A stretch of 64,000 bases of DNA from Chondrosia reniformis (Eukaryota; Porifera; Demospongiae; Chondrillida; Chondrillidae), in NCBI GenBank assembly GCA_947172415.1, contig OX359197.1, positions 2,232,001 through 2,296,000 on the forward strand. The letters run 5' to 3'. The translations under genes and the position numbers were made by a program. Of this stretch, positions 1,112 to 62,285 are shown one piece after another; the stretch's first letter is position 1, and each line of letters begins with the position of its first letter. The notes beneath the pieces were generated by a model. The model searched no databases, was not told where the DNA came from, and saw only the letters and a program-made list of their open reading frames with translations.

Positions 1112-4100
1112 TTCTTCTGTTTGCCACACATTTTGGATCAGAACTGTTTTCTGCTAATCTAATAGTGATTTCTTCCAAATGTGTGATTCCAGCTTGTCTA
1201 CTCATAGCAAATGTAACAGGTTCTGCATTCTCTTTGGTCACTATTCTTGTGCCAAAGAGAATGTTAACAGCTGCAAATGTCAGACAAGAAAGGACTGGAT
1301 GATCAACATTTATGCATCTACATATAGCGATATTAATACCTATTTAGAATAATGAAATATGCTTGAATTAACCATGCACATATGAAAAATCTAAGATATC
1401 ATTTTCCTACATGCTTTGCCTATTCTGTAAAAGAGCCTATAGAGGAACTAAACCTGAAGAGAGCCTTGGATGAAGATACAGGAGTCTTTTCTTCCTTCTT
1501 TCATCTCCTGGGTCAGACAGCCATTTCTGGGAATTCCACCCTTCATCAGTGATCCTGGGAGTCTTTGTTTTTTTCTTTATCTTTATCTTGATCTTCTGTG
1601 AATCCTTGGCATGCATGATAATCAAATTGCATTGCATTGAAATTTCAATTTATGAATTTATTGGGATTTTTACAAGAAATAAAATCAAAGCAGATTATTA
1701 GAATTGATCTAAATAATAACATTCCAGAGTATAAGAATGAGTTATTTTCAGAGCTTACGAGTATCTGTAATGGTGATGGTAACTTCATCATCACAAGGAT
1801 TGCTAGCAGCTGGATTGGTATCAAGTATAATCCTAAACGTTTCAGGCCCTTCACATCCTCGTGTATCATTCAGGATAGTTATACAAATTTCCTCAGATTC
1901 ACTATCATCCTCAAATATCAGTCTTTCAAATCCACTTCCACTGGCAGGTACAGGGATATACTCAAAATTAGCTAAAAATGATGTTAATATGTTAAAAATC
2001 TACATCAATCTCTTTAGGAGCAGTCATTTACAGAATATTTGCGGTGCTAGTAATAACAATGTCATACTCACGTGAAGCGAATCCTCGTCCCATTCTGGCT
2101 AATGTTTGGTAGCCCACAGAAAGTGGGTCACCATCATCAGGTTGTCTTGTTATATTGATACAGAACTGTCCATCTAACTCAGATACAGTAAATGATCTCT
2201 CAGTACCTTCAAAACAGACTGCATGACCGATAGGAAAAAAAATAATTGTATGCACTTTTGCAACAGGAAAACAAGTAAAATTGAATGGAATTATTTGAAT
2301 ACATATTAATGTTTTCTGTGATAGCTATGTAGATAGATGATTTGGCTAGCTGGTCATTCCGCTAAACTTTGAATGACATTTACTTAGCCTGAAACTTGGA
2401 AACTTTCAATATCAATCTAAACATTTCAATAATGTCACTGTTATTTTGCACCAATTGAGAATTGAATATATGATAACTAATGTACAGTTAACATGTCACA
2501 ACCATATTATGAGAGTTAAGGAAAGAAGACATTTGTATATACATGTGATGTCTGGCCTGGAAGTTCTGAGCAGGGAGGCTACAAACAATTAATTATTTGA
2601 AACAAACTAAGATGGCCAACTTTGTGTTAGAATAGTGATGTGCATTCATTTTCCATTTGTATAACTCTCGATTGGTGTCTGAGCCAGAGGGACAGGGTGC
2701 TACAGCATTCCCACATTTTCAGGTGGAAGCTAAGACATCCTTTATTCTAGAAACTAGCTTTAGCAGCTGGTTGGAGCAGTTTCAATACTTGTGGTCACAC
2801 AGCAGTCATGTATACAAAATATTTCATACCTAAACTTCTAAATTCTTCCTATATATGCACACATATAAAATCTAACTAATAAACATACTTACATAAAAAT
2901 GGCCACTCTATTGAACCATTTAGTAAACTAAATCCTACTTGTATTTATAATATGAAATTTCTGTCTGTTTAAATGATGTAAAATGTAAATAAAAAGGAAA
3001 TCTGTGAAATACCGTAGAACACATCCAAAATATCAGTGCTATAAGCTGATAATTCAAATACGTATAGTGCTATTGCTTAAAAAATGCACATGTAGGTCTA
3101 CTTAATACACAAAAGGGACTATACACACTCTGCAATAGGACTGTACATAGACATCTAAGTATGTATGTATATGACTATAGGGGAAGTACGTACTAGTACA
3201 TACAATAGTCATATCTTATAACATCTCATTAATATACCAGTTCTTCTATTACAAATTAATAATTAAAAGCATATAAGATTTCAATCTGAGTGTCTTGAAA
3301 CTCTGTTTCTTATTTTCCCAAAGAATTATGTAATGAGAATCAGGGATAAGGAGTGTCTACAAAAGTAGTCACCAGCCAAGGATACAGCAAAATCTGATAT
3401 TTTATTGACAACCAACATGGCCAAAATGCCTAACAAATGTCCACACAACCAACTGCACATCTATTAGATACTGTAATAGTATATACGTACGTACGTACAT
3501 ACATACATACCAAGATGAAGCATACAAAAATATGTAGATATCAAATATATGATAACAGAATGTACCGATATTTTCACTATAAATAACAACATCCACTGGA
3601 GACTAGATAACAGATACTGCCTGGTTCTTAGCAACATCTATCTGTCCTATAATAAACTGAAACTCAGACTTCATACAACCTAAAAATTTGAATTAAGTTA
3701 TGTATGTAATACGTACGTAAGTACAGTAAAATTGTTATAAACTAAAGGGTCAGCGCATGTTTATAAGCTAATCAGTTAGTGAACAACAAGAGACACCCAG
3801 TGGAGACAACCTAACCTCAATCCAAGCCTTAGGAGTCCCACGGTTGCTTTCCCACATGTGCCCTGACTAAGTTGGCTATGCTCTAATTATTTCACTAACA
3901 AACTAATCCATCTCTAATCAGTGAGCTGAACCACAACAATTAGGTTGGCTCACAGTGACTGCACCCAGCTATTGTTTGCATGCTCACTTACCATAAAGAT
4001 ATCTGATATGTATTCATGACAACTAATTTACATTTACAAGCATAAATGTGTACATTTATCATGCAATACTAAATAAGCAGTTGTTATTAGATATCAATAA

Positions 4101-18689: not shown

Positions 18690-20188
18690 TTAGGAATAAG
18701 TTTGTTCTTTCCATAGATAATGCTCATCATTAACTAATGTGGCTAGCTGCTTATTGTAAGGTGTAAAGAATTCAACTAATATCCTTTCTGTCTCAGGACT
18801 CATATAAAGTGAGCTGTTTGAATATGCTGAAACTCCTTGGTTTTCATAATCAAAAGTTCCTGTCACAGGATGTGTGATGCCATTAACTGGCCATGGAAGG
18901 TCTAAAAAACTGGCAAGTTGATGCAAAATTTTGCTATGATTGCTAAGTTCTTCAGTTCGAATGAGAAGAAATCTCTCCTTAGGAATGTAATAAAGCCAGT
19001 AATACAATGAATAGTAATAGATTGAGCTTCCCAGTGGGAGAAAGATGCAGCTAGGTATCCTCTTGTCAGGTACAATGTGATTTTTGTAATCATATATACA
19101 CATACTACCATCACCTTGAGTAAGCTCCATGCACTTATTGAAGGCAGTTGTGTGTTGTAATACTGCTAAATGCAACCAGTATCTTCTCACTTTGTCATCA
19201 TTAAGAGCCCCCTTCTTTTTCAAGCTTATAAAACATCCTTTATTAAAGTAGTAAAAACCCGACCAAACTAAAAGGACTGGATCTCTCATTACAATTATAT
19301 ACCTTTGTTGCTTGAAGAGTTGGGAGTACATATATGGCATAAACCCCGGTAACACAGAAGTAGTAGTTGCTCTAAATGGCAAACGGTAAGCTGCTAAAAC
19401 ACTGCAATCACCAGTTATCATGTTGGTATATTTGCTAATATTAAAGGCAGCTGGAACAAAATGAGCAAGATAGCGCTTAAAATATAACGAACTTAGCGGT
19501 TCAGCTGTCTTGTAAGGATACCATGTCCACCAATGCAGCTCCTTTTTTCAGGTCTAGCAAACATTTTGATTGTTGTTATTAAGGAATAAAGTGAGGTAGT
19601 TCCTGTTTTAGCATAACCCAGTAGAAAGAAATAAGGCAGGCAATAAAGGTATCTTTCTCGACTGCTTTCGGAATGTGCTCTTATTGCAATTGGAACACGC
19701 AAGTAAGAAGTCGGGCGTCTCACTAGGTATTTCTCTTTTAGTTTAACTGAGTTTTCGTCTTTCTGGCTGACACCGGAAAATTGGAGGCGTTTAAAAGCAG
19801 AAGGTATCCGTAAGTCGGAATACCAACACGGATTTCTAAATTCGGAGATGTACTCATCCGGCAGATGGGACTTCAGGGATACTATATATTCATCCATTAT
19901 CAACAGTTTCTGATGTAATTTGTTTTCCAGTGGCAAATTACGAACGTTCTCCACTAAGTATTTTTGAATACCAGTTGATGGTGATTGAGTCGTTATCTTA
20001 CTTTCGACAGTAGTTGCAAGTGCATGCGGTGTGCTTGGAAAATGAGATTCACTGACACTCACCACTTCGTTAGATATATCCACCTCGCTCAAGTGGCTAC
20101 CAGTCTGTAGTACAAAGACTATTGACAAAGAAATAACAGCAAGCGCAAGGAGATGATGCTTGAAGCGACACGCTAATATTCCATACAT
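18690..20188 (-). CDS. CHST15-like carbohydrate sulfotransferase, copy A, frameshifted
   Basis: This is a near-identical paralogue of copy C (31414-32907) and would move sulfate from PAPS onto a glycosaminoglycan in the Golgi. The N-terminal part (20188 to about 19540) has the membrane anchor LLALAVISLSIVFVLQ and the PAPS-binding motif GYAKTGTTSLYSL. The C-terminal part (from 19421) holds the second PAPS site VMRDPVLLVWSGF and the ending FFTPYNKQLATLVNDEHYLW. The two halves are in different frames: near 19540 copy A has six T in a run where copy C has seven. The rest of the frame is clean, so this could be a very recent knock-out or a base-calling error in a homopolymer. No introns. Confidence 0.8.
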
Positions 20189-21763: not shown

Positions 21764-23503
21764 CTAATAGAAATACAATTGGTACTCTTCTTCCCATTTT
21801 TGTAACTGTTCTTTAGGAACCACATCACTATCGGAAAATGAAAAGCCATTACTAAAGGGCTCTGGAACATCAATATCATAAGCCCAGCCTCTGCGATTTG
21901 GCTTGATGCCAGGAATATTTGGCGGATTGTAACATTTCAATCTGTTTGTGCCTACATTTTTGCCAACTCTAGCAGCTTCTTTTGCAATTTCCTTGTAATT
22001 AATATTGTAACATTGCTCGGCAACGCATTCACCCATTTTAGACACCAACAGAGACAGTTTGCTCAACAGCTTGCGATCTGTCTTGTTGATAATGTTGTTA
22101 ATGTGGTAGAAATCACTGGTACTGTTGTAAAATTCTTTTTCACCAGTGCACCATTCTGCATACAACCAGTTGGCACCTTCTGCCCAATCACTACCATTAA
22201 GGACATGTATGGCTTGGTAGGTATTATTCCAAAACCGGTTACCCCAAAACCCTGACATGTTGCCATATACCTTGGTATCCATATTGGAAGAGCCTCCGTA
22301 CATTTCAGAGAGTGCTACGGAACGAAAATTGTTAACTTTAGGACTAGGATCAATTTTTCCATTTAGTATGGAGACAATACTTCTTCCATCAAGCTGTTGT
22401 GGGTTTATTGTATTTGTAATGTTGGCTAAATCTAGCCAAGTAGGCAAGAGATCAACACTCATCACAGCTTGGGTCACCTTGACACCTCCTTTCACTCCTG
22501 GACCACGAACTAGAAAGGGGACCAAAACGTCTGTATTGTAAGCCTGTCTCTTGCCTGGTGTTATTCTAAAATCACCAAGGTGTTGTCCATTGTCTCCCAT
22601 GTAAAATATGTAAGTATCCTTTGAAATATCTAACTCATCAAGGGTTTCAACAATGGCTGCCAACATTTCATCGACTGCCTGTAAGGCTCTCAGTCTATTA
22701 CGATAAAAGTTGTCAATGTCTGCAATTTGACTTTCAGTAAGCAGTGGTAGGCGCTTAATCCAACTTGGTTTTTGCTGCTGAATGTCATCAGAAGGGTTAA
22801 AAGAAGGATAGCGGGGAGCCTTTAGATTATTAAACATATTTTCATGTCTTTTGGCTGGAATTGACGGCGCATGAGGGGCATGAGGGGCAATGTACAAAAA
22901 GAAAGGTTTATCTTCATCTCTTCTCTCAGTGAGATAATTGAGTACCCAATCTCTAATGTAATCTGTCTGGTATATAGTCTTTGGTACATGGTACTCAAAT
23001 TTACCATCCATTGAGACTACTGGTCCGTAGTATAACAATCTAGTCATTCCTCTCCAGTAGGTCCAACCTGGTGGAACATGCTTATACATGGTATACCCAT
23101 TCAGATATTTACCAATCAAAACGGTTTCGTATCCTGCTGCTTGCAGCAGGGTAGCTATTGTAGAATTATACAGACCCTCTGCTATAAATTTTGTAATTCC
23201 ACCACTTAGGTAGGTCTTGTTGTTCAAATCACCATTGTCCCAAATTTTCGTATTGTGACAGTACTGCCCTCTGATAATGGTCGATCGACTGGGACAACAA
23301 AGTCCAGTTGGAACAAAATAGTTCAAAAATTCCATTCCTTCGTTTCTGAGCAGTTTGTTCAAGAATGGCATGTAATCGAGTGACTTGGCCGTTACGTCTT
23401 GGTCATCTGTTAAGAGGAACAAAATATTTGGAGCCTTATTTCCTTCTAGCGAAGGAATACAAAAGCAGATGAACAACAGTACTTCTGGAAGACAAACCCT
23501 CAT
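21764..23503 (-). CDS. GNS-like sulfatase, copy A
   Basis: An intronless 579-residue sulfatase, close in length to the N-acetylglucosamine-6-sulfatase group. A signal peptide covers residues 1-20. Metal-binding D33-D34 lie in LLTDDQD. The formylglycine motif is CCPSRS at 69-74, with C69 the residue to be modified. K132 lies in LIGKYLNG, a conserved histidine in PHAP at 211, and D304-N305 in YMGDNGQHLGD, followed by K318. The order matches GNS. It would remove 6-sulfate from glucosamine of heparan- or keratan-like chains, in the lysosome or outside the cell. Several NxT/S sites fit a secretory protein. It lies between sulfotransferase copies A and B on the same strand. Confidence 0.9.
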   Translation of the reverse strand: MRVCLPEVLLFICFCIPSLEGNKAPNILFLLTDDQDVTAKSLDYMPFLNKLLRNEGMEFLNYFVPTGLCCPSRSTIIRGQYCHNTKIWDNGDLNNKTYLSGGITKFIAEGLYNSTIATLLQAAGYETVLIGKYLNGYTMYKHVPPGWTYWRGMTRLLYYGPVVSMDGKFEYHVPKTIYQTDYIRDWVLNYLTERRDEDKPFFLYIAPHAPHAPSIPAKRHENMFNNLKAPRYPSFNPSDDIQQQKPSWIKRLPLLTESQIADIDNFYRNRLRALQAVDEMLAAIVETLDELDISKDTYIFYMGDNGQHLGDFRITPGKRQAYNTDVLVPFLVRGPGVKGGVKVTQAVMSVDLLPTWLDLANITNTINPQQLDGRSIVSILNGKIDPSPKVNNFRSVALSEMYGGSSNMDTKVYGNMSGFWGNRFWNNTYQAIHVLNGSDWAEGANWLYAEWCTGEKEFYNSTSDFYHINNIINKTDRKLLSKLSLLVSKMGECVAEQCYNINYKEIAKEAARVGKNVGTNRLKCYNPPNIPGIKPNRRGWAYDIDVPEPFSNGFSFSDSDVVPKEQLQKWEEEYQLYFY

Positions 23504-28439: not shown

Positions 28440-28645
28440 ATAGGGTTTATCTTTTAGATTCGATTCTTTGAGCAGTCGCTGATGAGGACTCTCAGGGTCA
28501 AAACGTTTGACCTTTTGGTTGGTTTGGATTTATCGATGGATCAGTGGACCTTTTATAGACACCTTTTCCCGCCCTCTTCAGTTCCTATCACATGATCTAC
28601 ACTTCCTGTAACATGATCTCTAATATAACCTAAAAGATAAGTTCA
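28440..28645 (+). repeat. fold-back repeat with hammerhead-like core (copy in unit B)
   Basis: At 28475-28512: helix I arm GTCG, CTGATGA (28479-28485), a GACT/GGTC helix II, AAAA where consensus has GAAA, then ACGTT followed by TGAC, which pairs with the first arm (one G-T pair). The upstream arm ttagattcgattctttgagc is the inverted partner of the end kept in unit A at 21330-21350. Confidence 0.55.
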
Positions 28646-29040: not shown

Positions 29041-30783
29041 CTAATAGAAATACAATTGGTACTCTTCTTCCCATTTTTGTAACTGTTCTTTAGGAACCAC
29101 ATCACTATCGGAAAATGAAAAGCCATTACTAAAGGGCTCTGGAACATCAATATCATAAGCCCAGCCTCTGCGATTTGGCTTGATGCCAGGAATATTTGGC
29201 GGATTGTAACATTTCAATCTGTTTGTGCCTACATTTTTGCCAACTCTAGCAGCTTCTTTTGCAATTTCCTTGTAATTAATATTGTAACATTGCTCGGCAA
29301 CGCATTCACCCATTTTAGACACCAACAGAGACAGTTTGCTCAACAGCTTGCGATCTGTCTTGTTGATAATGTTGTTAATGTGGTAGAAATCACTGGTACT
29401 GTTGTAAAATTCTTTTTCACCAGTGCACCATTCTGCATACAACCAGTTGGCACCTTCTGCCCAATCACTACCATTAAGGACATGTATGGCTTGGTAGGTA
29501 TTATTCCAAAACCGGTTGCCCCAAAACCCTGACATGTTGCCATATACCTTGGTATCCATATTGGAAGAACCTCCGTACATTTCAGAGAGTGCTACGGAAC
29601 GAAAATTGTTAACTTTAGGACTGGGATCAATTTTTCCATTTAGTATGGAGACAATACTCCTTCCATCAAGTTGTTGTGGGTTTACTGTATTTGTAATGTT
29701 GGCTAAATCTAGCCAAGTAGGCAAGAGATCAACACTCATCACAGCTTGGGTCACCTTGACACCTCCTTTCACTCCCGGACCACGAACTAGAAAGGGGACC
29801 AAAACGTCTGTATTGTAAGCCTGTCTCTTGCCTGGTGTTATTCTAAAATCACCAAGGTGTTGTCCATTGTCTCCCATGTAAAATATGTAAGTATCCTTTG
29901 AAATATCTAACTCATCAAGGGTTTCAACAATGGCTGCCAACATTTCATCGACTGCCTGTAAGGCTCTCAGTCTGTTACGATAAAAGTTGTCAATGTCTGC
30001 AATTTGACTTTTAGTAAGCAGTGGTAGGCGTTTAATCCAACTTGGTTTTTGCTGCTGGATGTCATCAGAAGGGTTAAAAGAAGGATAGCGGGGAGCCTTT
30101 AGATTATTAAACATATTTTCATGTCTTTTGGCTGGAATTGACGGCGCATGAGGGGCAAAAGGAGCTATGTACATAAAGAAAGGTTTATCTTCATCTCTTC
30201 TCTCAGTGAGATAATTGAGTACCCAATCTCTAATGTAATCTGTCTGGTATATAGTCTTTGGTACATGGTACTCAAATTTACCATCCATTGAGACTACTGG
30301 TCCGTAGTAAGACAATCTAGTCATTCCTCTCCAGTAGGTCCAACCTGGTGGAACATGCTTATACATGGTCTCATACCCATTCAGATATTTACCTATCAAA
30401 ACTGTTTCGTATCCTGCTGCTTGCAGTAGGGTAGCTATTGTAGAATTATACAGACCCTCTGCTATAAATTTTGTAATTCCACCACTTAGGTAGGTCTTGT
30501 TGTTCAAATCACCATTGTCCCAAATTTTCGTGTTGTGACAGTACTGCCCTCTGATAATGGTCGATCGACTGGGACAACAAAGTCCAGTTGGAACAAAATA
30601 GTTCAAAAATTCCATTCCTTCGTTTCTGAGCAGTTTGTTCAAGAATGGCATGTAATCGAGTGACTTGGCTGTTACGTCTTGGTCATCTGTTAAGAGGAAC
30701 AAAATATTTGGAGCCTTATTTCCTTCTAGCGAAGGAATACAAAAGCAGATGAACAACAGTACTTCTGGAAGACAAACCCTCAT
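29041..30783 (-). CDS. GNS-like sulfatase, copy B
   Basis: A 580-residue intronless paralogue of the copy at 21764-23503, almost identical. The differences seen include one extra glutamate in LNGYETMYKH and PFAP for PHAP just before the conserved histidine, which is kept. The CCPSRS formylglycine motif, TDDQD and MGDNGQHLGD are intact, so it should be active. I start at the ATG giving MRVCLPEVLL; an upstream in-frame extension would need a non-ATG start. The very low divergence points to a recent duplication or gene conversion. Confidence 0.9.
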   Translation of the reverse strand: MRVCLPEVLLFICFCIPSLEGNKAPNILFLLTDDQDVTAKSLDYMPFLNKLLRNEGMEFLNYFVPTGLCCPSRSTIIRGQYCHNTKIWDNGDLNNKTYLSGGITKFIAEGLYNSTIATLLQAAGYETVLIGKYLNGYETMYKHVPPGWTYWRGMTRLSYYGPVVSMDGKFEYHVPKTIYQTDYIRDWVLNYLTERRDEDKPFFMYIAPFAPHAPSIPAKRHENMFNNLKAPRYPSFNPSDDIQQQKPSWIKRLPLLTKSQIADIDNFYRNRLRALQAVDEMLAAIVETLDELDISKDTYIFYMGDNGQHLGDFRITPGKRQAYNTDVLVPFLVRGPGVKGGVKVTQAVMSVDLLPTWLDLANITNTVNPQQLDGRSIVSILNGKIDPSPKVNNFRSVALSEMYGGSSNMDTKVYGNMSGFWGNRFWNNTYQAIHVLNGSDWAEGANWLYAEWCTGEKEFYNSTSDFYHINNIINKTDRKLLSKLSLLVSKMGECVAEQCYNINYKEIAKEAARVGKNVGTNRLKCYNPPNIPGIKPNRRGWAYDIDVPEPFSNGFSFSDSDVVPKEQLQKWEEEYQLYFY

Positions 30784-31413
30784 TTCTCGCTCCCGACAGA
30801 AATTTTTGCCTATAAATATTAATACTATTATATCTGGCAAGTTATACGTATTCTACCGTATTTGTCCTTATTTTCTTACTCCATTTTGTTATGACGCAAT
30901 TGTGGGCGTGACATTAATATACATGCACTTGATTGTGATTATCCATAATATCTTTACATTTGTAACTAGCATTGTGTAGTACTTGATTGTAATTATTATA
31001 CATAATCTCTAAGGGAGAAGGCCTTTCTACACTAATTGAGGCATAATAACTAAAAAGACAAAAAGGAGTATTTAAACAGATTGGTATACAAAGATGACAT
31101 GGTTTATCCTATACCCTACAGTTATATATATCCTTGCACATATTTACCATGCACATGCAGCTTTATAGGCAATGTAGATTTTAATATGTATTTTGGGTTA
31201 TACAATACTATAGAGATAAAATTGTGGCAGATTAATAGTGTTACATGCATAAAAATGTAATACAACAGATTTTTGTGTATGCATATGCAGTAACCAATTC
31301 ACATCAAGCTATATAAGTGACAATAAATGGATCAAGCTTATAGTCTATTGCTTGCAATTCCCTTTAATGTAAGTAAAGATTGATTGCAGCATAATCCTGT
31401 TAATCTGTCACAA
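30784..31413. other. spacer between sulfatase B and sulfotransferase C
   Basis: It is a paralogue of 23504-24309, shorter by a few deletions. No gene. Confidence 0.6.
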
Positions 31414-32907
31414 TTAGGAATAGGTTTGTTTTTTCCATAGATAAAGCTCATCATTAAGTAATGTGGCTAGCTGTTGATTGTAAGGTGTAAAGAATTCAAC
31501 TAATATCGTTTCTGTCTCATGACTCATGTAAAGTGAGCTGTTTGAATCTGCTGAAACTCCTGGGTTTTTGTAATTATACGTACCAGTCAGAGAATTTCTG
31601 ATGCCATTAACTGGCCATGGCAGGTCCAAAAAACTGACAAGTTGATGCAAAATTTTGCTATGATTGCTAAGTTCTTCAGTTCGAATGAGAAGAAATCTCT
31701 CCTTAGGAATGTAATGAAGCCAATAATACAATGAATAGTAATAAATTGAGCTTCCCAGTGGGAGAAAGACGCAGCTAGGTATCCTCTTGTCAGGTACAAT
31801 GTGATTTTTGTAATCATATATACACATACTACCATCACCTTGAGTAAGCTCCATGCACTCATTGAAGGCTGTTGTGTGTTGTAATACTGCTAAATGCAAC
31901 CAGTATCTTCTCACTTTGTCATCATTAAGAGCCCCCTTCTTTTTTAAGCTTATAAAACATCGTTTATTAAAGTAGTAAAACCCCGACCGGACTAGAAGGA
32001 CTGGATCTCTCATTACAATTATAAACCTTTGTTGCTTGAAGAGTTGTGAGTACATGTATGGCATGAACCCCGGTAATACTGAAGTAGTAGTTGCTCTAAA
32101 TGGCAAACGGTAAGCTGCTAAAACACTGCAATCACCAGTTATCATGTTGGTATATTTGTTAATATTAAAGGCAGCTGGAACAAAATGAGCAAGATAGCGC
32201 TTAAAATATAACGAACTTAGCGGTTCAGCTGTCTTGTAAGGATACCATGTCCACCAATGCAACTCCTTTTTTTCAGGTCTAGCAAACATTTTGATTGTTG
32301 TTATTAAGGAATAAAGTGAGGTAGTTCCTGTTTTAGCATAACCCAGTAGAAAGAAATAAGGCAGGCAATAAAGGTTTCGTTCTCGACTGCTTTCGGAATG
32401 TGCTCTTATTGGAACACGCAAGTAAGAAGTCGGGCGAGTCGCTATGTATTTCTCTTTTAGTTTAACTGAGTTTTCATCTAATTTCTGGCTGACACCGGGA
32501 AATTGGAGGCGTTTAATAACAGATGGTATCTGTAAGTCGGAATACCAACACGGATTTCTAAATTCGGAGATGTACTCATCCGGAAGATGGGACTTCAGCG
32601 ACGCTATATATTCATCCATTATCAATAGTTTCTGATGTAATTTGTTTTCCAGTGGCAAATTACGAACGTTCTCCTCTAAGTATTTTTGAATACCAGTTAA
32701 TGGTGATTGCGTCGTTACCTTACTTTCGACAGTAGTTGCAAGTGCATGCGGTGTGCTTGGAAAATGAGATTCACTGACACTCACCGCTTCGTTAGATATA
32801 TCCAAGTGGCTACCAGTCTGTAGTACTAAGACTATTGACAAAGAAACAACAGCAAGCGCAAGGAGATGGCGCTTGAAGCGACACGCTAATATTCCAGGCA
32901 TGCTCAT
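31414..32907 (-). CDS. CHST15-like carbohydrate sulfotransferase, copy C, intact
   Basis: A 497-residue single-exon type II Golgi enzyme. The membrane anchor is at about 13-30 (LLALAVVSLSIVLVLQ). The 5'-phosphosulfate loop GYAKTGTTSLYS is at 189-200, followed by KKELHWWT, which matches the KEPHWWT segment of CHST15. The 3'-phosphate site VMRDPVLLVRSGF is at 298-310. The C-terminal block FFTPYNQQLATLLNDELYLW matches the end of CHST15. CHST15 adds 6-sulfate to N-acetylgalactosamine 4-sulfate in chondroitin sulfate; the exact acceptor in this animal is unknown. This is the only fully open copy of the three and lies upstream of sulfatase B on the same strand. Confidence 0.88.
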   Translation of the reverse strand: MSMPGILACRFKRHLLALAVVSLSIVLVLQTGSHLDISNEAVSVSESHFPSTPHALATTVESKVTTQSPLTGIQKYLEENVRNLPLENKLHQKLLIMDEYIASLKSHLPDEYISEFRNPCWYSDLQIPSVIKRLQFPGVSQKLDENSVKLKEKYIATRPTSYLRVPIRAHSESSRERNLYCLPYFFLLGYAKTGTTSLYSLITTIKMFARPEKKELHWWTWYPYKTAEPLSSLYFKRYLAHFVPAAFNINKYTNMITGDCSVLAAYRLPFRATTTSVLPGFMPYMYSQLFKQQRFIIVMRDPVLLVRSGFYYFNKRCFISLKKKGALNDDKVRRYWLHLAVLQHTTAFNECMELTQGDGSMCIYDYKNHIVPDKRIPSCVFLPLGSSIYYYSLYYWLHYIPKERFLLIRTEELSNHSKILHQLVSFLDLPWPVNGIRNSLTGTYNYKNPGVSADSNSSLYMSHETETILVEFFTPYNQQLATLLNDELYLWKKQTYS

Positions 32908-41065: not shown

Positions 41066-41188
41066 TGAAAGGATCATCTTTTGACTTTTAGAGCATCTAA
41101 AGAAGACCTTTGGGGTCGAAACGTCTGACACTCAAGAGAGACTACAAAACTTTAGACTCTCTAAAAGTTGAAAGGTGATCCTTTCACA
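41066..41188. mobile_element. fold-back element with hammerhead-like centre
   Basis: The arms gaaaggatcatcttttgact and gttgaaaggtgatcctttca are inverted. Between them 41097-41125 reads CTAAAGA (consensus CTGATGA, two changes), a GACC/GGTC helix, GAAA and the palindrome ACGT followed by C. Same family as 15598-15720 and 63440-63538. Confidence 0.65.
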
Positions 41189-50756: not shown

Positions 50757-53700
50757 ATGGCAAGTCCTAGACTGTCTAAAAGAAAGACAGCTGTAAAATC
50801 AGGATCCTATGTTCAAATGCAAAGACCTGACAATTCTTGCAATGTACCACAACAAATGATATCAGATCAACCACCACCACTGCCAAAGGAAAGGAAGAAA
50901 CATCCAGGCCTGCCTCATCCTCCTGGTGGACCTCCAGCTGTCCACCAATCACAAGGATCACCAAAGGTTCCACGAAGGCTCCCATCCCAGACTTCCAAAG
51001 ATCAGCCAGACTCTGGGCCACCTCCTCTTCCTCCTAAGGAACCTATTCGTCAGGACCCTAGGAGTCCTCCAATTATACCTAGAAAACCAATAAAACTTCC
51101 CTCCCCACCGCCACCATTAAGAACAAGGCCGCCACCTTATAAATCTATCTCTAAATCCTACACTCTTGAAGAATGTATCCAGAAAGCAAAGCTCCCAATT
51201 ATGATTCGAGTTGTATCAGGAATATTTGATGCAATGGAAGAAAGGAGAACTATACCAACTGGTTAGCCATCAGTTTTGTAGATATCATATTATATAATAT
51301 GGCTACATAGCCAATGTACGTACATATCACATATATACACATGTAGATCAGGAATTTGTTGCCTATTTTCAAAAAAGAACCAAAGTTGTCAGAGCTAAAC
51401 CTGAAGACTACATGAGAATGTATTCAATTCCTATCAATTCTGCCATCAAGTTTATACCACTCTATGAAGAAGATAGCAAATTCAGTCACGCTCCCTGGGA
51501 AGGTGACTTTGATAACGTGGCAGACCTTCACAAACTTGAAAAATTGCCAAAGGTACCTATTCATAATACATATGTATGTATGTACATTTACTTGTGAATC
51601 GGTATGAACAATTTCTTTCTTACAATTTTATCACTTGGAGATGTCTATGTCACTCCAGACCTATGGAAGTATATTGTACCCCATGCATTGTCGAGGTAAA
51701 GAACTCATAATGGAGGGGCATTATCTACTGTAAACAGTGTTAATTCCTGATTAGGAGATTTTACAGTGGAAGTGAAGTAAAATTATACCCATTCATTTTT
51801 GGTTACTAATACTTACTTGTTTCTTCTATCCTTGGCTGCCCATATGCCATGACAATGGATTATAAAACAGTTTAAACCCATCAGCTGAGATTTCCACTGA
51901 GATGTGATCATTTAACATTGGCCTTGTATTATATTTGGCTATAGTTATCACCTCCGGCTATATCTATTATATATATGTATTTGCATATTAATACAGGCTT
52001 GCATATTCATAAGGGAGATTATAATTACCTTGTATGTAACCACTCAGTTTTAGAAGGAGAAATTTTTGTTTACATAGGTTTTAGTAGTAACACGTGACAT
52101 AACTGATACAAACAAGAAACGCCTGAAATCAGGAGCCTGCTTATTCCAACTGGAAAAGAAGATGAAAAAAGGAGAAAGAGGAATAAAAGCAGTTGATCAT
52201 CTTGGGCAAAAGCATTACTTTTTTGAAAATGAAAGAGTCTTTTTCAGTAGCCGAAGAGATCGTATTAAAATGTTTGTGTATGAATTTTCCAAATTTATAA
52301 CTTTTCCTGTGAAGGTTCAAGCCAGAGTACCCGTGGAAGTGGAGAATCTGATGAGAGCTGAGGCTCTTGGTTCAGAGCAATTTATTGAAGACTTCTCCAT
52401 TTTGACCTTTGAAAAGTTAGAAGATGAAACTACTATTGTAGTCAATACTGATATATCAAATTTGAGCAACAGACAAACAAATATGGACTACATCATGGAA
52501 TTGCCTACTGACCTTGATATTGAGGTATGTATATACATAAACAAAATAAACAAATAGTGTAATGATCATGGACAGTCCCTAACACTATACTACCGATAAG
52601 ATATACATATATACAGTGAAATAGCATTAATGTGAACTAACTATTTATTGATGGAATAAGCATTTCTTTTAATTATGTCAAACTTATGTTTTAGATGAAT
52701 TGATGATAAAGATTTAACAAACTGTATCCCCGTATGTACTAACTTTTAAAATATGAACTACGTACGTATTTAACATTCTGTTAATTAATACAAAAAATAC
52801 AGGGGAAATTTCTGGATATGATTATTATTAAATTTAAACATTTGGAATGAATAAGACTGTATAGATATATGTAAATGTTGCATATTTAAGTGTTTTGTGT
52901 AAATAACCTACTAATGTGAAGAAAAAATGAAAGTATTCAAAATACTTAGTTTTAACTTTCACGACTTCTACACATATTGACATCATAAGGTTACACTTAT
53001 ACTTTAATTGTTCCCATTTTCTGGCCACATTTCATTATGTAACAGTCCATTGTCGGTATCATGAAATCAGAACCTTTTATAATATATCCACGAGGAGCCT
53101 AGGACTTACAAAAGATCAAGAAAGAAGACAAAAAATCCCAGGGTCACTGATGAAAGGTTCCCAAAAGGCTGTCTAGCCCAGTCTTGTATCCTCATCCAAA
53201 GCTCTCACTGGGTCCTATAAGCCTTTATTCTAAAGCAGATGTAGTAAAATGGTGTGTTTGATTATTCATGATGCAGGTAGAAATCATTGAATTTGAAGAA
53301 GAGAAGTACCAGAGGGAGATGTATGAAGCTGTTGTCCATTCCTATGAGATATTTGGAACAGGAAACAAGAATTGTGAGAACCCTTATTCTTCATCAGGAC
53401 AAAAAGTTCTCAACTCCAACGTAGACAGTACATATGAGGGTGCTACCGAGTTGGATGATATTGATCACGTGTATGATTACATCAGCTCTAAAAGCCTTCT
53501 ACGAATGGCTAAAAATGTTAAGGTATACAGACAAAAACATGCATAAGTACAATTAGTCATATACTACGTATATTATGAAGTGATAAGGGTTGTTTGTTGC
53601 GATCATGATTGATTCCAGAGGTATTATTGAGCAACAGCAACATAAATTATTGATAATAGAACATTTCAACCCATACGTCTTCATCAGCAAACAACCCTGT

Positions 53701-56700
53701 GGGTTGAAACATCCTATTGTCAATAATTTATGTTAGGTATATTATATACTGCATATACCCATAAAAATGTTGGTTACATAACAATACAAGAACATGGCAA
53801 ATATCAATTATTTTCAACTTTATAAAAAAACTAGTTACATACATTAAAGGTAATCAAAGCAATTAGCATGTTTGTGAGTTTTGACTAACTTATACACTCT
53901 AATTAGTCTAAAGTTCAATAGTGAAACAAATTAGTACCTTAGTAACCAACATTACCTTATTGCTATTTATTGTTCTCTGTACTCTTTACAAAATGATTTA
54001 CGATCATTGAATAGTATATACATAGATTACAGTTTTTTGTAACTACATATGTATCTAGGAATAAAGTAATACATTTTGCCATATCTTCATTTTAGCTATA
54101 CTGTACATATGTAATCTAAGAGACAGAGGTTGATCTCTCTTTTAGGGTGATTTACTAGCATGTTTCACCGTTTTGCTCTTTTCATTCATAGAAATCTGCT
54201 GCCGTCACTCCTGAGACAGCACTCATGGGCCCAGGCCCCTCTCATTTCCCGAGACCAAGTCGAAGTGCTAAGGGTAATTATACTATACACTGTATTCACA
54301 TTCATATATCATTGTAATCCAGAGCAGATCCTTTCCTATATTAGTGTGTGGGTCCTGCGTGTTTTGGTTAGATATTAAGCAATTAGTGTATAGTCTTTCA
54401 ACCATTTTTCCTATATACCCATAACAAAGGATTTCTACATTATAGTGATACCCTGCTGTTATTCTCCATATGTACATATGTATCCGTATATACCTACGTA
54501 TACATTTACCCCTATTTCATTAGTATTACTGTTAGTCAAGAATCTTGTGTTTGTTTATTGGCATTATTCTTGCACACTCATTTTTTCTACTGCTTCTATT
54601 GGCAGATCTACCTTTACCGCTACCTCCTGTAGAACAAAGCGTGGAGCCCCAAGTACCTCAAATAACACCCCTTCCTCCCAGAAATAGTCAGTCTTTTATA
54701 TCAATATGTTATTAATATGTTACTAATGAAAGCTAATTATTTTGCTGTACCCTGACTGTCAAAAATTGTTAAATTTTCTTTTAATTTATTTATCTGACTA
54801 CCTGGTCTCATATAGACATACATGCGTACATGTGGTCCGTATACTTTGGCGTGTAGCAAAGTGTATACTGTATACATCAGTTAATACCCCATTGCGATGG
54901 CAATGAACTGATACATTGAGGGTATTATCAACAATAATTTCTTATTAAGGAGGTATACAGTATGTAAAGTTTATATAGGAAGTGAAACAATCTTACACAT
55001 TCCTTTTCTTTGCTACTGGTAGTTATTTACTCACTGAAGCTAATTTGACACTTCTCTTTATTAGCCCTATTGATCCTGGGGTGCCTAAATACCATGGCAA
55101 CGGGGTATGAAACAGTTATCCCAAAGGCAAAGGACTATAGCCAAAATGTAATAAAGGCCAAGGTGGAGCTTAACAAGCTCTGTTTCAACTTTAAGTTAAG
55201 ATATTGATTTATGACGATAATAATGAATTTGAGTACAAAGTAATACTTAATGAAGGTTAATGAAATGTGTAGTAGTACTTTATGTAGAGTATGTATACAT
55301 GTGAAGGATGCTCCCATTCCGTATTGTGAGCATTTTTGTATTTGTCAGTCCAACTTGACATAAAAAAATACGAATGTATAATATAGTCTAATAATTGTAC
55401 GTGTACATGTGTGATTAATTTGAAGATTTCTTAAACCACTTTATTCTGCACTAATTTGGATGTGAATATAACCAGAGGCCCAAATAAAGGTATATACAGC
55501 TGGTGATATACTAAAACGGACCTCTCTTAATAAGTTGTTTTCCGGTTAGGGTGTTTTTTCCTTGAAGCTAGGTTTCAATGTTGACTCAATAGTATAATTA
55601 GGTCAGTTTCACTTAGTTGCTAACATCCTATGTTTTTAGAAAATTTACAGGTGTATACGTACGTACATAGCGTTACTTCTCAAGTGTAATTATGTAGAAC
55701 CAATAATTTTGTATGTTCATAAAAACTGACCTTTTTGAACAATTATAATAGAGTATAGGCTGAGTGTGTATATAAATATGTGTAATACAAGATTGCTTGA
55801 TGAGCATTGGATACCTTTTAAGCCATTCTCTCCATACTCTTGACATTTGTGTAAGTGGTTAACCACATATGCTGGGGTAAGCATGTAGTTATGGACTAGA
55901 TTTAGATGTGCATTTTCAGTATATGATAGTGTTCCACCTTGTGATAAGTTACTACATACTGTACGTACAATTAATTTCACCAAGTAATACTAATACTGGA
56001 AAAATAGGGGAACTTTAAGGTCTAAAGCCAATCTTAAAGCTCTGATGTCATCATCATTGAACTCTGGATATTACCTCTGCCCACTCATATCCCCTGAGGA
56101 GCACAATGAGCTAATGGGCAGAACCAAAGTTCATTTGATGGGAACCAGAGTCTCCCCTTAGCCACTCAAAAAGATGGTCAAGCCAAAGACAGCTGTTTTG
56201 TCCTTATTAGGACTCATCAGTATATGGCATACGATGGAACTTTGAGTGGCTAGTCTGCTCATAAGTACTTCCAAAAGCAAAAAAATGCTTGTGGTTTCCT
56301 TATCAGCAGATAAGGGGTACAGCCAAAAGATATTACCTCTGCCTCCAGGACCTAGTCACTCTTAAAAGCAAATATGAATGGTAAACTTGAAGGTAGACCT
56401 CCTGGTTAGGACTTGATTGTCATTCCAATCAACATCTGCCTCTATATATTTACATACGTATATGCTGTTGAGGTAATCATAGTCAATACACTAATGAGTA
56501 ACAATTGTTTTTCGTGCAATTATACTTTGCTAAGTGTTGTATGTATGTATGTAGCTGAAGCAGTTTCAAGAAGTCCAAGAAATATTTCTGCCCTGAGTCC
56601 TATAATACCAATACCTCCAAGAGGTTCTATGTCATCAGGTCAGTGCAAATACACCCTCTGTAAAGTAGAATCTCTGACTAATGGGACTTTTTAATATGTT

Positions 56701-60657: not shown

Positions 60658-61515
60658 AGAGAGTACTACAGTACTCTCTGATATAAATTCCTAAAATGGG
60701 ATTTCCCCTTTTTGCGTGTATATGCATACATATAGAGCTCTGTATATATATACGTACATATAACATAGAGAGCCTATGTATGATGTGTATGACTATAGTA
60801 TGTAGATGGGAATGTACAGAGTATTGTGTGCATGAGGCTGCATAGATATGTGCATTCTTCTTCTCAGCCTCTGATTACACCCACTAGATAGTGAGCAGAT
60901 GTATTAAAGCAATTTTTGTGCAGGACACAGAAGTTTGAAACTTTTCATTGGTCATCGGAAGAGATTGTATACTTATTTGTTATCAAAGCAGTCCATCATA
61001 TTATACATATGTATGAATACTTGTAATACATGAAGTTAGTTACCATAATGAAAGTATTCAAAAACAATTATACATAGGGTTTAGGACTGCTTCCTAAATA
61101 CATGTATATCCAACACATTTATGGTACATATATACCCAATTGCAATCCACAGAATATGTAATATAAGATTATTGCATTTTCAGCAAGGAAATGAGCCTTT
61201 AGTAATAGTAAGACATGAAAGGAATAAATAGTGTAATAATTGTGACATTGCTAGGTAATTCTGAACAAGGTACAACTGCATGAACTTCAAATTGAAAATA
61301 CCCCGTAATAGATTCGACATGATTTGTATTAACTATAGGAGGAGAATAACAGTTACGCAAATGAAGGCATTAAATTAAAATGAATATGGAATTTATAATT
61401 GTAGATTAAGTGTGCAATACAGAAAAACAAGTCATTTACATATACATATATGTAAGTACGTACGTATATGTATGTTTGTATGTTATATATATAAATCTGA
61501 GTGGTTAGGACAATC
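60658..61515. other. AT-rich spacer
   Basis: I see no gene or repeat element here beyond short TACGTA-rich sequence near 60740-60770 and 61440-61490. Confidence 0.4.
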
Positions 61516-61566
61516 CATCTTTACTTTGTATATGATCTTGACACTAACCAAAGTTTAAAATTATAC

Positions 61567-61609
61567 AACCAAACATTTCAACAACTAATCAGTTGTCTTC
61601 ATCAGTGGT
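61567..61609 (-). ncRNA. candidate hammerhead ribozyme, minus strand
   Basis: On the minus strand: helix I arm ACCA just before CTGATGA (61605-61599), one extra A, helix II GACAAC/GTTGTT, GAAA (61579-61576), ATGT, T, then TGGT, which pairs with ACCA. The core is exact, but helix I has only four pairs. Confidence 0.55.
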
Positions 61610-61639
61610 ATCATACAGCAAGTGATCTCTGGGGGTGGA

Positions 61640-61690
61640 ATAACCACTGATGAAGACAAATGAATATAGTTGTCGAAATGTTTGGTTGTA
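61640..61690 (+). ncRNA. candidate hammerhead ribozyme, plus strand
   Basis: Helix I left arm ATAACCA (61640-61646); CTGATGA (61647-61653), exact; one extra A; helix II GACAA (61655-61659) and TTGTC (61670-61674) around a 10-base loop; GAAA (61675-61678), exact; ATGT as a two-pair self-complementary helix III; T61682 as the cleavage nucleotide; then TGGTTGT (61683-61689), which pairs with all seven bases of the left arm (one T-G pair). An extra A after CTGATGA is known in a natural hammerhead. Such a short helix III would need dimer formation to cleave. Confidence 0.6.
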
Positions 61691-61772
61691 TAATTTTAAA
61701 CTTTGGTTAGTGTCATGCTCATATGAAGTAAAGATAGATGTATTTGTATGTTGTTACATATCACAAGCAAGA

Positions 61773-61958
61773 AAGAAAAAGGTAAGTTTGCTAAAGTTTA
61801 CAGGTTTGCAAACTACTGATTTACAGGGAGTTTGGCAAAGTTTGCACACAATATTGTTTATATAAACCCTTATGTAAACAGTATTGTGTGCAAACCACCT
61901 GTAAATCAGTAGTTTGCAAACCTGTAAACTTCTGAATCAGCAAACTTACCTTTTTCTT
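61773..61958. mobile_element. fold-back element with about 80-bp arms
   Basis: aaggtaagtttgct, then tttacaggtttgcaaactac and the following bases, are repeated inverted on the right half, with a gap in each arm. The inner part repeats tttgcacacaatattgttta in inverted form too. No coding content. Confidence 0.8.
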
Positions 61959-62285
61959 ATAGGCTACAATTGTATGGTTAGCAAGTGTGGCTTGTTACAT
62001 CAAAGAGTGAGAAATGATAATTTCCCTCACCTCAAGCAACTGTACAGTGTTTGGACCATTTCTGTCTACCTCAAAACTTCCAGTGCAAAACACAATAGTA
62101 AAACAGGCTCTACAGATAACTGCCAGATATATACATAATAAATAATAAGAATATAATAAATGATACAGATATATTATGTATATGTTAACAATAGACAATA
62201 AAGTATATGTACATCTATGTATATAGTCTACTTATAGTTTTGCGTAACTAATAAACCAACTTACATTTAGATAAAAGGGACAGTT

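Follow-up and report, generated by a model that had tools for sequence, protein, structure and literature searches.

An insertion with inverted arms and two hammerhead cores

The window analyzed here, a 64,000-nucleotide stretch of the Chondrosia reniformis genome (contig 9, positions 2,232,001 to 2,296,000), contains close to its right end a short insertion that comprises two head-to-head copies of one repeat unit, with an exact 10-bp target-site duplication at its ends (Table 1). The arms of this structure are part of a repeat that is dispersed in the sponge genome: in DNA searches of the 117,379,552-base assembly (15 sequences), the stretch as first reported recovered 83 matches and a longer query 46. 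A count of the genomic copies, which had been suggested in the initial annotation of this locus, bears out the dispersed nature of the element, with 40 places listed.

Table 1. Coordinates of the insertion and its component features in the window
Feature	Position	Strand	Remarks
Left target-site duplication, TTTGTATGTT	61475..61484		Exact 10-bp repeat at both insertion ends
Right target-site duplication, TTTGTATGTT	61743..61752		Exact 10-bp repeat
Whole insertion, two head-to-head units	61485..61742		Flanked by the 10-bp duplication; arms align with the unit
Left unit (pLTR-like), tailed	61486..61643	-	Unit positions 10-169; BLAST against unit consensus 90.6%
Optional tail of about 30 bp, on left arm only	61486..61515	-	Inner limit approximate
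Right unit, without tail	61643..61739	+	Unit positions 44-142; 5' truncation immediately ahead of the core
Inverted arm pair	61530-61587 / 61667-61724		58 nt, 95% identity
Inverted arm pair	61586-61609 / 61643-61666
Inverted arm pair	61513-61531 / 61721-61739
Inter-core segment	61610..61642		Upstream part of left unit, up to the junction
Hammerhead motif, plus strand	61634..61698	+	Predicted cleavage after T61682; covariance model R1 62.5 bits (training sequence)
Helix I 5' strand of plus copy, chimeric	61640..61646	+	61640-61642 from the other arm, 61643-61646 unit proper; from junction position
Core CTGATGA, plus copy	61647-61653	+
Extra A after the core, plus copy	61654	+
GAAA, plus copy	61675-61678	+
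ATGT, plus copy	61678-61681	+
Hammerhead motif, minus strand	61556..61618	-	Core from 61605; predicted cleavage after T at 61572

The initial annotation had described the element as a fold-back structure with the elements of a hammerhead ribozyme core arranged in the right order on each arm, and this description of the cores is confirmed. The core letters CUGANGA and GAAA, the A15.1/U16.1 pair and H17 are present in both window copies, and a scan for the core with its helices (exact core letters, helix II of at least 4 pairs with a loop of at most 15 nt, and helix I of at least 3 pairs) found both arm sites in the window and no site in 100 first-order Markov simulations of it, a zero that holds for loops of up to 15 nt. 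The minus copy has a helix II of seven pairs, including a G-U pair at its base, and a helix I of four contiguous pairs, and scores 84.7 bits with R1, a covariance model derived from 41 motifs that include this one as a training sequence. In the plus copy, helix II is GACAA/TTGTC, with five pairs and a 10-nt loop, and helix I has seven pairs, one of them a wobble. While these counts agree with those given earlier, the helix I of the plus copy loses its weight as evidence: the right unit is cut just before its core (at about 61643), so that 61640-61642 belong to the neighboring arm and the long helix I is therefore partly accidental. Similarly, the letters of the plus-strand core are as claimed, but the assertion that it has no mismatch overlooks an extra A between CTGATGA and helix II, which is found in both copies. 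The ATGT is likewise present, but it needs two G-U pairs to pair with itself, ACGT being the fully self-complementary form.

RNA of the entire insertion is predicted to form a hairpin of -125.3 or -127.6 kcal/mol, depending on the strand; the window motifs folded alone yield -10.8 and -12.3 kcal/mol. The further claim, that one ribozyme would arise whichever strand is transcribed, is not supported, because each transcript also carries the complement of the ribozyme and a single hairpin is predicted.

The window contains several other structures. At 53639-53734 a smaller structure with inverted arms (35 nt, 89%) contains a minus-strand hammerhead-like core, which scores 30.3 bits with R1 (E 2e-5); by eye, its flank resembles a motif beside the L022 copy of the present family, which suggests that it represents another family of Penelope-like elements (PLEs). 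Two hammerhead-like motifs on the plus strand, at 28466-28523 and 41084-41141 (R1 27.6 and 20.7 bits), are of the short helix II type seen at loci with GIY-YIG domains. A separate palindromic repeat with 20-nt perfect outer arms adjoins the insertion at 61773-61958; a genome search with it yielded 29 matches, drawn from 15 candidate places, and it looks like a MITE. The minus strand further carries duplicated sets of long ORFs (21764-23503, 29041-30840, 18690-20188 and 31414-32907), whose translations, judged by eye, look like those of sulfatases and sulfotransferases.

The dispersed unit and its hammerhead motif

Thirty-five of the loci were placed on a common unit, with L026, L027, L029 and one further site left unplaced. 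The unit begins with an upstream pyrimidine-rich part, followed in order by CTGTATGATACCA, the core, helix II (GACAACT/AGTTGTC), GAAACGTT and AAGTAAAGATGG, beyond which an optional further stretch ends in CTCAGGTCTATATA. Helix I of the unit has four pairs (ACCA/TGGT) and, beyond a 2x2 internal loop, another four, and helix II has seven; in the minimum-energy fold of the consensus motif as typed, both helices are present and the core is partly paired too. This architecture supports, in both arms of the window element, the earlier assignment to the minimal type I hammerheads known from PLEs. Such hammerheads without helix III are in some cases located in the pLTRs of PLEs (PMC7761336, in part), and those of PLEs and Terminons resemble the sponge motif in having no stable helix III, in being dispersed and in presumably acting as dimers (PMC7761336 and PMC7229834, both in part). 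A weak palindromic helix III is also shared with the satellite and retrozyme hammerheads of newt and axolotl, which cleave efficiently as dimers; these, however, lie in tandem repeats of 330-350 bp, in contrast to the inverted PLE-type insertions of the sponge (PMC7229834, in part).

We examined the motif in two alignments, namely A1, with 41 rows (40 distinct) from across families, and A2, with 29 rows of the window family chosen by homology. For the latter, BLAST pieces spanning fewer than 36 motif positions were omitted, which left 35 distinct stretches. Six of these were excluded, namely the second units of L032 and L028 as well as L031, L046 and L035, whose matches end inside the motif, and L025, whose match starts inside it; the other 29 make up A2, in which L034 is visibly misaligned and was scored as damaged. 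In A1, 84.3% of the cells are paired, double changes occur at 10 of the 15 pairs (a number reached by 19 of 500 shuffles), and the covariation score is 0.267 versus 0.171 ± 0.013 for shuffled alignments (reached by 0 of 500) and 0.056-0.109 for slid versions; RNAalifold run unaided predicts four of the helix I pairs and three of those in helix II. Among the 12 non-family rows of A1, three were picked by the core alone and nine with helix II pairing required, whereas helix I was never required. Given that the rows are related and that nine of these 12 were selected for helix II, we regard the covariation in A1 as support rather than proof. Within the family, the signal in A2 is weak, with double changes at 3 of 15 pairs (322 of 500 shuffles reach that), a score of 0.172 versus 0.140 for shuffled alignments (3 of 500) and only helix II found by RNAalifold. 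The covariation of helices I and II that had been put forward as a check is thus supported between families and weak inside this one.

The individual copies vary in how well they retain the motif. Both core halves are intact, with no insertion inside CTGANGA, in 15 of the 29 family copies, the remaining 14 being damaged or misaligned; 11 of the 29 have an A at position 12. The helix III tetranucleotide is ACGT in 9/29 and ATGT in 11/29, and is other than ACGT in 20/29 altogether; a stable helix III is absent from the monomer, which has just this 4-nt palindrome. These changes in the core and helix III look as if old copies had decayed, to a large extent at CpG sites. All 12 of the other motifs and 28 of the 29 family copies have the extra A between the core (A9) and helix II, the one remaining copy having a T there. 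An extra core nucleotide has reportedly been published for a viroid hammerhead.

A match to the Rfam hammerhead models, which the initial annotation had proposed to look for, was not obtained in the window: the scan at gathering thresholds was without any match, and a permissive scan of 61400-62000 had no hammerhead row among its 42 matches. The same models gave no match at 11 motif loci, eight of them GIY-YIG loci (one was also scanned permissively). As Rfam is blank at eight motif-bearing GIY-YIG loci too, the miss in the window tells little, and we did not use it as evidence; rather, since the models passed over the PLE-type motif in every scanned stretch, such motifs are easily overlooked.

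A connection to PLE genes is seen at the GIY-YIG loci themselves. In a domain search of the genome, in which 150 matches were scored of 382 candidates, 12 loci were fetched, and nine of these have R1 matches, eight of them downstream on the same strand and one (L062) on the other strand only; L060, L063 and L064 are outside the training set of R1, the other GIY-YIG loci being at least partly in it. Beyond the domain, L057, L063 and L065 show a second, inverted head-to-head R1 match (one at L065 is weak, at 23.7 bits). The reverse transcriptase was detected in two of the three ORFs checked, that of L067 (RVT_1, 2.3e-10; GIY-YIG, 4.6e-5) and that of L065, where GIY-YIG is accompanied by a reverse transcriptase match just under the Pfam cut-off; the ORF of L057 has GIY-YIG only. 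In L067, the stop codon is followed by the motif CTGAGGAAGACCCCCAGGGTCGAAACGTT, which is similar to the hammerhead motif of the unit. L009 also holds two hammerhead-like motifs in inverted orientation that belong to a different family, at 2216-2267 (minus strand) and about 2378-2420 (plus strand), with cores about 120 bp apart. For the 150 scored of 382 candidates, the median GIY-YIG position lies at 0.37-0.50 of the chromosome length on all nine chromosomes checked, possibly as a mark of centromeric zones.

These data bear on whether the motif is a hammerhead or a conserved protein-binding or other site at PLE ends that resembles one by chance or without such a function. The weak covariation within the family, the extra A in the core, the absence of an Rfam match and the damaged or misaligned cores of nearly half of the copies are in line with mere likeness, as is the report that hammerhead mutants of an anole PLE inserted normally in vitro, with no reads ending at the cleavage site (PMC11167929, in part). 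Against this, the core letters are kept and the helices covary between families whose flanks are unlike each other, and the anole work also has a PLE hammerhead that cleaves in vitro together with its protein (PMC11167929, in part). Hence, we consider a chance or non-functional resemblance unlikely.

Unit ends, head-to-head pairs and target duplications

The placed loci comprise 20 with a single unit, 10 with a close inverted pair (nine distinct), four with partial direct tandems and one, L038, in which two head-to-head units lie about 970 bp apart and were not counted as a close pair; judged by eye, L038 has a degraded tail on the left arm and none on the right, and no duplication longer than 7 bp was found there. 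Across 52 unit pieces, the 3' ends fall into two clusters, 20 at unit positions 130-142 and 17 at 165-169, with 15 elsewhere; these two end points about 30 bp apart correspond to the optional tail of PLEs. The 5' ends are ragged. The direct tandems lie on chromosome 13 at 1.75-1.92 Mb (L028, L031, L032 and L045) and have two units in direct order with a linker of about 47 bp; at L045 the tail opens a 26-codon frame into the next unit.

The nine distinct close pairs (L001, L003, L012, L013, L018, L022, L033, L040 and L049) are all head-to-head; L040 and its duplicate L043 are a single duplicated site counted once, and L049 is seen as an inverted pair in a looser alignment only. In every one of the nine the arms are unequal at their 3' ends, one ending at 158-169 and its partner at 127-142. 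Seven pairs have one end in each 3' cluster, the exceptions being L003, whose longer arm ends at 158, and L049, whose shorter arm ends at 127; if the ends were independent and equally frequent, nine mixed pairs in nine (with these two looser pairs included) would have a chance of about 0.002. No two of the nine pairs share a 5' junction. Five of them, including the window copy, are flanked by target duplications of 10-12 bp, which differ from pair to pair; of the remaining pairs, two have 6-7 bp and two have no duplication of at least 5 bp. Duplications of at least 9 bp are found at 5/9 pairs versus 0/72 cross-paired flanks of mismatched sites; a control with random boundaries, less strict than the cross-pairing, gave 5/540. 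Among the single units, a target duplication was seen in only 1 of 12. With nine different junctions and their own duplications in five of nine cases, the pairs look like separate insertions.

We also searched for a coding partner of the window family. No scored GIY-YIG match (150 of 382 candidates) was found within 19 kb of its 40 listed places. A 26-residue translation of one tail region had matches in five chromosome-13 copies only, and searches with the peptide, the extended unit and the tail region, which gave 5, 46 and 17 matches, respectively, found no longer gene. As an ORF of its own with reverse transcriptase and GIY-YIG domains was not found, we classify the family by its structure as PLE-type and non-autonomous.

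The lack of a scored GIY-YIG match within 19 kb, the small non-coding unit with a type I hammerhead and the partial direct tandems with short linkers are also what one might expect of an animal retrozyme, that is, a small non-autonomous hammerhead retroelement that spreads as circular RNA. However, none of the 35 placed loci is a regular tandem array, the helix III is not a stable one, the ragged 5' ends come within 2 nt of the predicted cleavage site in just one of the 52 pieces, and the two-point 3' end is a signature of PLEs, rendering the retrozyme very unlikely. The initial interpretation as a fold-back element, here taken as a DNA transposon of the fold-back or MITE type in which the inverted arms constitute the mobile form and each strand carries a ribozyme, has in its favor the near-perfect 58-nt arms and the strong predicted hairpin, but it is hardly credible in the face of the preponderance of single-unit loci, the distinct junction and unequal arms of each of the nine pairs, and duplications that vary between pairs and are proper to five of them.

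The window element as a probable Penelope-type insertion

Taken together, the element in the window is very probably a single truncated insertion of the Penelope type, in which two head-to-head pLTR-like units meet at a ragged 5' junction and a target duplication of 10 bp lies on either side. The unit, its two end points, the duplication, the covariation across families and the presence of the motif at GIY-YIG genes, on which this reading draws, were established computationally. The inverted arrangement, which the initial annotation did not know as a form already described, has precedents, as head-to-head pLTRs have been published (PMC3846280, in part) and PLE hammerheads are placed in pLTRs (PMC7761336, in part). 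In Penelope elements of the rotifer Adineta vaga, adjacent inverted pLTRs, most commonly head-to-head, are explained by self-priming, and an optional 31-bp tail on one pLTR and, for several copies, target duplications of 8-10 bp are described (PMC3846280, in part). The sponge unit is alike in its head-to-head layout, one-arm tail, target duplications and truncated and solo copies; the Adineta copies differ in that they mostly enclose an ORF or captured DNA, whereas the window copy is made up of two units alone (PMC3846280, in part). A further difference is the recognizable hammerhead of the sponge unit, the term 'hammerhead' being absent from the Adineta paper (PMC3846280). Among the literature titles listed, there was none on a sponge PLE hammerhead or on an inverted hammerhead pair.

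The Poseidon PLE of Anolis provides a second point of comparison, with hammerhead stems I and II, as in the sponge unit, and a 30-40 bp tail from two start sites that is comparable to the tail of the latter (PMC11167929, in part). There, the tail is the stretch between two start sites of reverse transcription, and each of the two DNA strands is cleaved and extended; the hammerhead does not cleave without protein, and its cleavage is dispensable for insertion in vitro (PMC11167929, in part). Poseidon differs in that its ORF begins at stem II, while the frame from the core ATG of the sponge consensus, read by eye, runs into a TAG after five codons (PMC11167929, in part).

By analogy to these systems, the two 3' end points of the sponge unit might be start sites of reverse transcription, with one arm of a pair ending at the nearer and the other at the farther, tailed point, and the layout would result either from priming at both DNA ends or from self-priming as proposed for Adineta (PMC3846280, in part). 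In a tandem PLE transcript, two motifs could pair through the palindromic ACGT as helix III, an interaction expected between tandem units only, and the resulting dimer may cleave behind the GUU triplet, a mode of action presumed for minimal PLE hammerheads (PMC7761336, in part). Owing to its inverted layout, an RNA of the window copy would instead contain the motif together with the complementary sequence and be locked into a hairpin; given this expected hairpin, the window copy is most likely an inert relic without useful self-cleavage. As a more tentative idea, possible though on the doubtful side, the pairs might arise in one PLE reaction in which each end of the target DNA primes its own cDNA, obligatorily from different RNA start sites, one at either edge of the tail, with the hammerhead unneeded at that step; if so, a PLE dimer would allot a different start site to each DNA end.

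The window element would accordingly be a neat but fairly ordinary retroelement relic, and what seemed to be a new kind of element, with ribozymes in a fold-back structure, is removed from consideration, as it resembles an insertion product already known. Neither the layout nor the motif is new, and it is their combination in a sponge, along with the one-tail pattern of the pairs, that is worth keeping. The family adds a sponge case whose short copies allow the tail of PLEs to be read along with the inverted layout and the target duplication, and should the one-tail pattern be shared by other PLEs, it would be informative on the insertion mechanism of this poorly understood group of retroelements.
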